Source: Candidatus Dojkabacteria bacterium (GTDB taxonomy: Bacteria; Patescibacteriota; Dojkabacteria; SC72; WJKH01). Taken from it: DNA of 33,178 nucleotides. Shown one piece after another: positions 8,489 through 10,482 of the stretch. Location: positions 1 through 33,178 of the forward strand of contig WJKH01000014.1 in the NCBI GenBank assembly GCA_014729235.1, in the 5' to 3' direction. The notes below the pieces were generated by a model that worked only from the letters and a program-made list of their open reading frames with translations, was not told the origin of the DNA and ran no database searches. Every line of letters begins with the position of its first letter. The stretch's first letter is position 1. The position numbers were made by a program, and so were the translations under genes.

Positions 8489-8761
8489 TTATTTAACTGC
8501 TTCTTTCAAAGCCTTACCTGCTTTAAATCGTGGAACGTTTGTTGCAGGAAGTTGAATCTTCTCAAGAGTCTTAGGATTAATACCTGCTCTTGCAGCTCTG
8601 TGACCAACGTCAAACTTACCAAAGTTTGTAATTAGCACAGCTTCTCCTTTTGAGAGAGATTCTCTTATCGTATCGAGTAATGACTCGATAGCGGCTGTAG
8701 CATCCTTCTTAGTCAGACCTGTTTTGTCTGCTACTGCCTGTACAAGATCTTTCTTTAGCAT
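8489..8761 (-). CDS. hup: HU-family DNA-binding protein
   Basis: 90-residue HU/IHF-family protein of standard length. The N-terminal helical dimerisation part begins MLKKDLVQAVADKTGLTKKD. The signature GKFDVGHRAARAGINPKT (about 47-64) covers the beta arm with the family's conserved R-x-G-x-NP. The C-terminal helix is VPRFKAGKALKEAV. It bends and compacts DNA as a dimer. It is single-gene transcribed: a consensus promoter, a strong AAAGGAGG ribosome binding site (rare among its neighbours) and an intrinsic terminator all flank it, implying high expression. Confidence 0.97.
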   Translation of the reverse strand: MLKKDLVQAVADKTGLTKKDATAAIESLLDTIRESLSKGEAVLITNFGKFDVGHRAARAGINPKTLEKIQLPATNVPRFKAGKALKEAVK

Positions 8762-8770
8762 TTTTGCTTT

Positions 8771-8780
8771 TCCCTCCTTT
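8771..8780 (-). promoter_or_regulatory. strong Shine-Dalgarno site of hup
   Basis: AAAGGAGGGA on the minus strand, 9 bases from the ATG at 8761. Most genes in this window lack such a site, so it marks hup as strongly translated. Confidence 0.8.
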
Positions 8781-8790
8781 CTTTTAAGAT

Positions 8791-8810
8791 AGTATCAAAA
8801 AGCTGATACT
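8791..8810 (-). promoter_or_regulatory. operator-like inverted repeat at the hup transcription start
   Basis: AGTATCA and TGATACT (7 bp each) separated by 6 bases, placed exactly at the predicted +1 region of hup (near 8811). It could be a protein binding site or a stabilising 5' hairpin. The sequence alone does not decide. Confidence 0.45.
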
Positions 8811-8817
8811 AATACAT

Positions 8818-8846
8818 AAAATAGATCAATTATTGAGAAATGTCAA
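8818..8846 (-). promoter_or_regulatory. hup promoter
   Basis: Minus strand TTGACA (8846-8841, perfect -35), 17-bp spacer, TATTTT (8823-8818). The predicted start is near 8811, which gives a leader of about 50 bases. Confidence 0.7.
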
Positions 8847-8861
8847 TATTTAAAGGGATTT

Positions 8862-8947
8862 TCACACTATAAGATGATTTTTATTGATTTAACAGGGGAA
8901 TTCCGCAACGTCTTATAGTGTGCAAACGTGCGATAATTCCCCTGTTA
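8862..8947. repeat. two interleaved inverted repeats with pseudoknot topology
   Basis: Arm A CACACTATAAGA (8863-8874) is the exact reverse complement of A' (8911-8922). Arm B TAACAGGGGAATT (8890-8902) is the exact reverse complement of B' (8935-8947). The order is A-B-A'-B', so the stems interlock instead of nesting. An extra CGCA (8904-8907)/TGCG (8929-8932) lies inside B-B'. The element sits between the rny stop codon and the hup promoter, and neither stem is followed by a T tract. As RNA it could fold as an H-type pseudoknot or as two mutually exclusive hairpins; as DNA it could be a complex binding site. Confidence 0.7.
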
Positions 8948-8967
8948 CAAATGCATTGATATAAATT

Positions 8968-10482
8968 TTAGCCGGCAACCTCCTGAGCTCGAAGCTCTCT
9001 AATAACATTAACAGTCACAGTTCCCGGATAAGTCTGGGTGCGCTTAATTTCGTCAGCAATTTGTTTCGCAAGAAGTGTAATCTCATCATCATCAGTTATA
9101 TCTGGCTTAACCAGGACTCGTACCTCTCTCCCAGCGTGGATAGCATAAACGTCATCTACTTTATCACCGCCTATCTTTTTAGCAGTATCTTCAAGAGCCT
9201 CAACACGCTTGATATATTGATCATAACTATCTTTACGGGCTCCTGGTCTTGCACCTGATATCGCATCAGCAACATGAATAATCCATGCTTCAATGGAACT
9301 TGGCTCAATATCCAGGTGATGCCCTTCAATTGCATTAATCATCCTGTCAGGTAAACTGTATTTCCGTGCTATTTCGCCTGAAATATGATGATGAGGCTGC
9401 TCAACCTTATGAGTAAGCAATTTACCTACGTCATGAAGTGCTGCGGCTTTTCTAACAAGCTCAACATCAGCGCCTAACTCAGAAGCTAAAGCCGCTGATA
9501 AACGGATAACTTCAATTGTATGGGTCATCAGGCTCTGTCCATAGCTGGTTCTGTATTTCATCTTTCCCAGCAGCTTGAGCAAATCTGAATCAATCCCCGG
9601 CCAACCGGCTTCTTCAGCTATAATTTGCCCGTTTTTGCGAATCTCGGCAGCAATTTCACGTTTGGCTTTTCGGATTTCATCTTCAATAGTACCGGGATGA
9701 ATTCTGCCATCAGATATCAGTTTTTTAAGTGCTACACGTGCAATTTCACGTCTAAGCGGATCAAAGCATGAGATCCCGATTTCTGTCGGAGATTCATCAA
9801 TTATTAAATCGACGCCTGTAGCCTTCTCAAAAGCCCTTATGTTACGGCCATCTTTACCAATAACGCGTCCCTTGATTTTCTCATCTTCAATTTTAATAAC
9901 TGTAGTTGTAGTCTCAGAAACGTAGTCAGTCTCTATTTTGTGCATAGCATCAACCAAGATCTCTTTTGCTCGTTCATCAGCAATCTCCTCAGTTTTCTTT
10001 TCTACCTCTCGAATTTTTCGAGCCTTAAAGTCCTTGAGATCTTCCTCAAGCTCTTCAAGGAGCTGCTTCTTGGCTTCATCTTCCGTCATTTGAGATATCT
10101 TTTCAAGCTCGGTCTTGAGTTTTCCGCGCCCTTTATCCAAAATTTTCTTGGCATTGCGGACTTTATTCTTATCAACTTCTACTTGTTCCGCTTGCTTTTC
10201 AATAAGCTTAGCCCTCTTATTGAGTGTTTTCTCACGTTCAACAAGTAAATTTTCCTGCTCAGTCACTTCGCGCCTTATTGATCTAGCGGTTTCTTCGGCT
10301 TTCTCTTTGATTTTTTCCGCTGTATCTTCTGCTTCTTCAATAGCTTTCTTGGCTTTCTCACTAGCCTTTGCTATAGCATCTTCCTCAGAAATTTCAACCT
10401 TTTCTACTTTCTTACTCTGGGAATAAAAATAGTATGCAGCTGCTCCAGCAGCGAGAGTTGTTATTATTAAAATAACTTCCAT
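8968..10482 (-). CDS. rny: ribonuclease Y
   Basis: 504 residues, the usual length for this membrane-tethered endoribonuclease that starts mRNA decay. Order of parts: an N-terminal membrane helix (about 3-20); a long Lys/Glu-rich coiled coil (about 25-190); a KH RNA-binding domain with the GxxG loop VIGKDGRNIR (about 207-216); and an HD phosphohydrolase domain with HTIEVIRLS and the metal-binding ALHDVGKLL (about 348-356), followed by EGHHLDIEP and HVADAISGARPGAR. All catalytic HD elements are present. It is transcribed apart from tgt, with 271 bp upstream. Its mRNA would run into the interleaved repeats at 8862-8947. Confidence 0.97.
   Translation of the reverse strand: MEVILIITTLAAGAAAYYFYSQSKKVEKVEISEEDAIAKASEKAKKAIEEAEDTAEKIKEKAEETARSIRREVTEQENLLVEREKTLNKRAKLIEKQAEQVEVDKNKVRNAKKILDKGRGKLKTELEKISQMTEDEAKKQLLEELEEDLKDFKARKIREVEKKTEEIADERAKEILVDAMHKIETDYVSETTTTVIKIEDEKIKGRVIGKDGRNIRAFEKATGVDLIIDESPTEIGISCFDPLRREIARVALKKLISDGRIHPGTIEDEIRKAKREIAAEIRKNGQIIAEEAGWPGIDSDLLKLLGKMKYRTSYGQSLMTHTIEVIRLSAALASELGADVELVRKAAALHDVGKLLTHKVEQPHHHISGEIARKYSLPDRMINAIEGHHLDIEPSSIEAWIIHVADAISGARPGARKDSYDQYIKRVEALEDTAKKIGGDKVDDVYAIHAGREVRVLVKPDITDDDEITLLAKQIADEIKRTQTYPGTVTVNVIRELRAQEVAG

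Follow-up and report, generated by a model that had tools for sequence, protein, structure and literature searches.

What are two interlocking perfect inverted repeats doing between rny, which encodes RNase Y, and hup, which encodes an HU-type DNA-binding protein: do they form a working RNA pseudoknot, some other structure or a site on the DNA, or were they left behind by the way in which the DNA was copied? The repeats lie in a stretch of 33,178 nt from Candidatus Dojkabacteria bacterium (GTDB lineage Bacteria; Patescibacteriota; Dojkabacteria; SC72; WJKH01), positions 1–33,178 of the forward strand of contig WJKH01000014.1 (assembly GCA_014729235.1), the whole of which we refer to as the window.

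The repeats and their setting

Both genes are encoded on the minus strand, a point missed in the original prediction, and are separated by a gap of 206 nt in which the repeats lie past the rny stop codon and short of the hup −35 box, that is 3′ of rny and upstream of the hup promoter, where they had been placed (Table 1). Forward-strand Repeat A pairs CACACTATAAGA (8863–8874) with TCTTATAGTGTG (8911–8922) at 12 of 12 positions, and can be extended to 15 of 16 over 8859–8874/8911–8926; Repeat B pairs TAACAGGGGAATT (8890–8902) with AATTCCCCTGTTA (8935–8947) at 13 of 13. Two perfect inverted repeats of 12 and 13 bp in the order A-B-A′-B′ are therefore present as described, with the first arm starting at 8863 and not 8862. 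Reading along the minus strand, the rny stop codon is followed by 20 nt, the B 5′ arm, the 32-nt spacer (containing an inner stem and the A 5′ arm), the B 3′ arm, 15 nt, the A 3′ arm and ~16 nt, after which come the −35 box and the rest of the hup promoter, the hup leader hairpin, a Shine-Dalgarno sequence and hup itself.

Table 1 Features of the rny-hup locus and locations of the other elements described in the text
Feature	Position	Strand	Remarks
rny (RNase Y)	8968..10482	-	Pfam RNase_Y_N, HD and KH_1 above cut-off; 3′ end bears the repeats
hup (HU-type DNA-binding protein)	8489..8761	-	Pfam Bac_DNA_binding, 1e-33
B 5′ arm, UAACAGGGGAAUU (rny strand)	8935..8947	-	begins 20 nt past the rny stop codon
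B spacer, 32 nt	8903..8934	-	inner stem of 10 pairs plus bulges, extends B to a 23-bp hairpin
A 5′ arm, CACACUAUAAGA (rny strand)	8911..8922	-	CACACUAUA part forms the apical loop once B is extended
B 3′ arm, AAUUCCCCUGUUA (rny strand)	8890..8902	-	followed by AAUCAAUAAAAAUCA, without a U tract
A 3′ arm, UCUUAUAGUGUG (rny strand)	8863..8874	-	ymdB C-terminal codons at the same place in relatives
hup promoter, TTGACA-N17-TATTTT	8818..8846	-	conserved in most relatives
hup leader hairpin, UAGUAUCA...UGAUACUA	8790..8811	-	hairpin at the same place in every relative examined
Motif of family f2	L009-L012, L014-L020, L024-L031		directly after the rny stop
~150-bp repeat copies	L037:693-846, L045:12652-12801, L051:4479-4628, L108:14384-14535, L112:9535-9680, and further copies

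Since most relatives retain the hup promoter, hup mRNA should normally start downstream of the repeats, and any structure they form would be carried by the 3′ region of rny or by read-through RNA rather than by the hup leader. That leader (8762–8817 in the window, and the same place in L003–L031) has its own hairpin just upstream of the Shine-Dalgarno, in widely different sequences, and leader control of hup is possible.

A and B are the two longest perfect inverted repeats in the 33-kb window (span under 150). None of 2000 Markov shuffles of the gap produced an interleaved pair with both arms of at least 12, and one produced a pair whose shorter arm was 11; 40 shuffles of the whole window gave zero interleaved pairs with both arms of at least 10, and 685 kb of the same genome held one other interleaved pair (11/10) and none of at least 12, all of which bears out the original view that a chance origin is unlikely. 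In simulations with a 32-nt loop and flanking sequence of 120 nt, inverted matches of 12 nt turned up at a rate of ~0.09%. The repeats are too rare for chance, hence they were made either by selection or by a copying mechanism.

Rfam returned no credible match at gathering or relaxed thresholds, and a copy of a dispersed repeat or MITE was ruled out, as the feature is single-copy in the genome. Searches for the same gap in plasmids (distant blastn) gave only chance matches at 16–17% coverage; RNase Y relatives were found in no viral contigs, and those in genome contigs came from a Mesoplasma and from a single relative at order level (Candidatus Dojkabacteria). An integron attC site was rejected, there being no integron integrase above cut-off (TIGR02249 best 123.7 bits vs. 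265, and 14 of 14 controls match too), and the domains of the strongest hit are generic phage-integrase ones. One locus (G000:C71:8923-9714; L118, L119) encodes a tyrosine recombinase with phage-integrase domains, whose partial matches to the integron-integrase model are well below cut-off.

The same genome carries other repeats. A dispersed, MITE-like family of ~150 bp has terminal inverted repeats TTAATTTGAATTA and inner GAAAAGGCGACTAG...GCGCGCTTTTCA(A/G)CTGCAGT, is found whole or in part at some 20 sites across ~650 kb, sometimes in tandem, and matched nothing in Rfam for the two contigs scanned. Another sequence, GGAGTGATTGGGTGGA, makes a perfect inverted repeat of 16 bp with an 11-nt loop and occurs in two copies (L081:1064-1106 and L085:182-224).

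Folding of the rny 3′ region

The original prediction had overlooked a further, bulged stem (UCGCACGUUU/AGACGUUGCGG) inside the B spacer. On RNA, B and this inner stem are predicted to form one 23-bp hairpin over 8890–8947 (−30.1 kcal/mol) with a 10-nt loop GCACACUAUA, the B pairs having a probability of about 0.8–1.0, and the region 8840–8970 folds better than all 200 shuffles (z-score −4.07). A scan of 8857–8967 found no intrinsic (L-shaped) terminator and the tail past B reads AAUCAAUAAAAAUC, in agreement with the earlier statement that this is not a normal terminator and has no T tract. The hairpin is stable, U-less and 3′ of the stop codon, as I-shaped 3′ hairpins are.

We tentatively favour, at somewhat short of an even chance, a U-less (I-shaped) 3′ hairpin specific to this lineage, with A probably derived from template switching or loop inversion. 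The structure would lie in the 3′ region of the rny mRNA, in the place formerly filled by ymdB, where B and the inner stem are predicted to fold into a single, very stable hairpin. The most likely role of this U-less hairpin is to mark, form or protect the end of the rny mRNA, and it would also separate rny from the independently promoted hup. Repeat A renders the hairpin loop complementary to the downstream tail, so that loop-tail pseudoknot pairing may follow, though the function of the hairpin would not need it. In a cyanobacterium, U-less hairpins were associated with shorter half-lives than those with a U tract (PMC7406221), so a strong stabilising effect of the rny hairpin should not be assumed.

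The overlapping topology of the arms means that A and B cannot both form as simple nested hairpins, and a switch between the two had accordingly been proposed. Our folding does not sustain this: the A hairpin alone reaches −12 kcal/mol (−15.8 with other pairs) against −30.1 for the extended B hairpin, which forms first in transcription and excludes A, whose probability in the nested ensemble is 0. Such a switch is the least credible reading that we considered.

A functional H-type (loop-tail) pseudoknot, in which the apical B loop pairs with the tail and the knotted 3′ end withstands exonucleases, or is recognised by RNase Y, which thereby sets its own level, ranks second among the functional readings, after the U-less 3′ hairpin, and is on balance unlikely. 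Two interleaved helices can be written, with arms of 12 and 13 bp that were never reached in 2000 shuffles, and A nearly exactly coincides with the apical loop of the longer B hairpin, a coincidence that had gone unnoticed. With 18 B pairs kept, the B part reaches −23.1, and the A helix as a duplex contributes −15.2; under a generic knot penalty of our own rough estimate the pseudoknot would be about as stable as the extended hairpin alone, within error, although the folding tools used are not pseudoknot-capable and these energies do not decide between the two. Against it, both stems exceed one helical turn and would be hard to thread, no relative carries the interleaved repeats, and arm A′ seems to derive from the coding part of ymdB. 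Bacillus subtilis RNase Y controls its own mRNA, yet the autoregulation known there works through the 5′ UTR and the beginning of the ORF and not through the 3′ end (PMC10303841). The more specific proposal, that a loop-tail pseudoknot evolved after ymdB was lost and sets the lifetime of RNase Y's own mRNA, is more doubtful still.

Relatives and the loss of ymdB

The interleaved repeats are absent from all 28 rny-hup gaps of relatives at family-to-order distance, and the B hairpin, sought in 42 order-level genomes, is present only in that of the window. Of the conserved pseudoknot that had been considered, the topology stands, and conservation found no support at this distance (0 of 28 gaps, the nearest from a relative of the same family only, with rny about 65% identical). 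As that family holds two genomes, a family-to-order comparison leaves room for an element conserved at genus level. A role for the repeats as a DNA site, such as a cruciform or overlapping operators for HU autoregulation, is very improbable on the same comparison, the hup promoter being kept in relatives from which the repeats are missing. The A′ arm does end about 16 bp upstream of the hup −35 box, and a Porphyromonas gingivalis HU homologue encoded next to a 77-bp inverted repeat has been studied, but that protein had no obvious preference among DNA architectures (PMC3969353).

The order rny-ymdB-hup occurs in the other genome of the window's family (f1), in families f3, f4 and f5 and in part of f2 (in L003, ymdB matches Pfam YmdB at 2e-86), and ymdB is absent from the whole window genome, whose assembly is about 95% complete. 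Judged from gene order, rny-ymdB-hup is the ancestral arrangement and ymdB was lost from the window genome. In many relatives rny is followed by a canonical terminator with a T tract, and the window gap has none. The A 3′ arm and its flanks read INKNHLIV-stop, compared with RINLIV-stop in L003 and RINKIL-stop elsewhere, and a local DNA alignment of this region with the end of the L003 ymdB gave a modest match (shuffle p = 0.025); arm A′ may, from these similarities, be a relic of the ymdB end.

The other f2 genomes have no ymdB between rny and hup, and a non-coding gap of 350–460 nt instead. These gaps (L009, L011, L012, L014, L016 and others) are AT-rich, mostly without an open frame from the rny end to the hup promoter, and could hold an undescribed small RNA. 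Here a 23-nt motif, CTTCTAGTA-N5-TRCTAYRRG, lies 4–18 nt past the rny stop, usually in one copy per genome and mostly upstream of a terminator-like hairpin (Table 1). It can form an 8-pair hairpin with 97% of cells paired, its variation is one-sided (G-U/A-U only) without compensatory changes, and a DNA or protein site is thus equally possible. Three f2 genomes that do bear ymdB (G018, G021 and G022) have a one-mismatch copy inside that gene. The motif is absent from the window genome, is well conserved and apparently undescribed, and matched no Rfam family at the six loci scanned that bear it. Stem A resembles it at 7 of 9 and 8 of 9 positions (CTTCTAGTA/TRCTAYRRG), a level jointly reached in 4% of shuffles, and we do not claim a relationship.

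Origin of the repeats

With the 32-nt B spacer in the opposite orientation, A and A′ would form a direct repeat, C.TCTTATAGTGTG.AAA, matching at 16 of 18 positions and 52 nt apart. Loops flanked by inverted repeats are known to flip-flop in the stem-loops of plastids (PMC6342102), and a spacer becomes inverted when the template switches from one inverted repeat to the other (PMC8604942), so a single inversion would turn an ordinary repeat into the pseudoknot-like order. For the hairpin reading that we favour, this makes replication template switching or hairpin-loop inversion the most likely birth of A. Three points run against this: neither orientation of the loop is seen in a close relative, the flipped form folds worse (−24.5 vs. 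−30.1), unexpected if orientation were neutral, and the 12-bp loop-tail match, improbable by chance, could equally reflect selection for pairing. The flipped spacer also resembles the start of the L019 gap (CAACGTCTT), a likeness that we judged to be chance.

The same events might have left nothing of use, the interleaved repeats being a by-product of two template-switch or loop-inversion events in the ymdB deletion scar. The repeats are lineage-specific and single-copy, they are located in that scar, and the mismatches between the two A copies (similar over 16/18) are isolated. The hairpin is however exceptionally stable, 3′ hairpins past stop codons are usually useful, and B is still perfect across 13 bp; we regard a functionless origin as a serious but somewhat unlikely alternative to a U-less hairpin with a role at the rny 3′ end.

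Implications and comparison with known systems

The repeats are real and not a product of chance, and a working pseudoknot is possible. If a hairpin or pseudoknot controls the rny mRNA, a reduced CPR bacterium would regulate its principal enzyme of RNA decay through the 3′ end. If a pseudoknot sets the lifetime of that mRNA, this would parallel the different, conserved hairpin after rny in other ymdB-less Dojkabacteria, and rny 3′ ends would be a repeated site of RNA-based control in reduced genomes. If the repeats are only a template-switch scar, they are a warning that interleaved perfect repeats can mimic a designed pseudoknot. The f2 motif after rny is a more testable lead than the window repeats.

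Among known systems, the I-shaped terminator-like 3′ hairpins (PMC7406221) share with the rny hairpin a strong, GC-containing, U-less stem just past the stop codon with an independently promoted gene next, whereas the rny stem is much longer (23 bp) and its loop is complementary to the tail. H-type (loop-tail) RNA pseudoknots share the A-B-A′-B′ arrangement and two complementary stems, but the stems at rny are of 12 and 13 bp or more, each longer than one helical turn, and come without a ligand family, an Rfam match or conservation. RNase Y autoregulation in B. subtilis would share its setting, in that the enzyme's own mRNA is the target, but the sites known there lie in the 5′ UTR and within ~100 nt of the start of the ORF (PMC10303841). 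In plastid flip-flop inversions, as here, inverted repeats flank a short loop able to take either orientation (PMC6342102), whereas our case is bacterial and has a 32-nt loop seen in one orientation only, so that the flip is a proposal.
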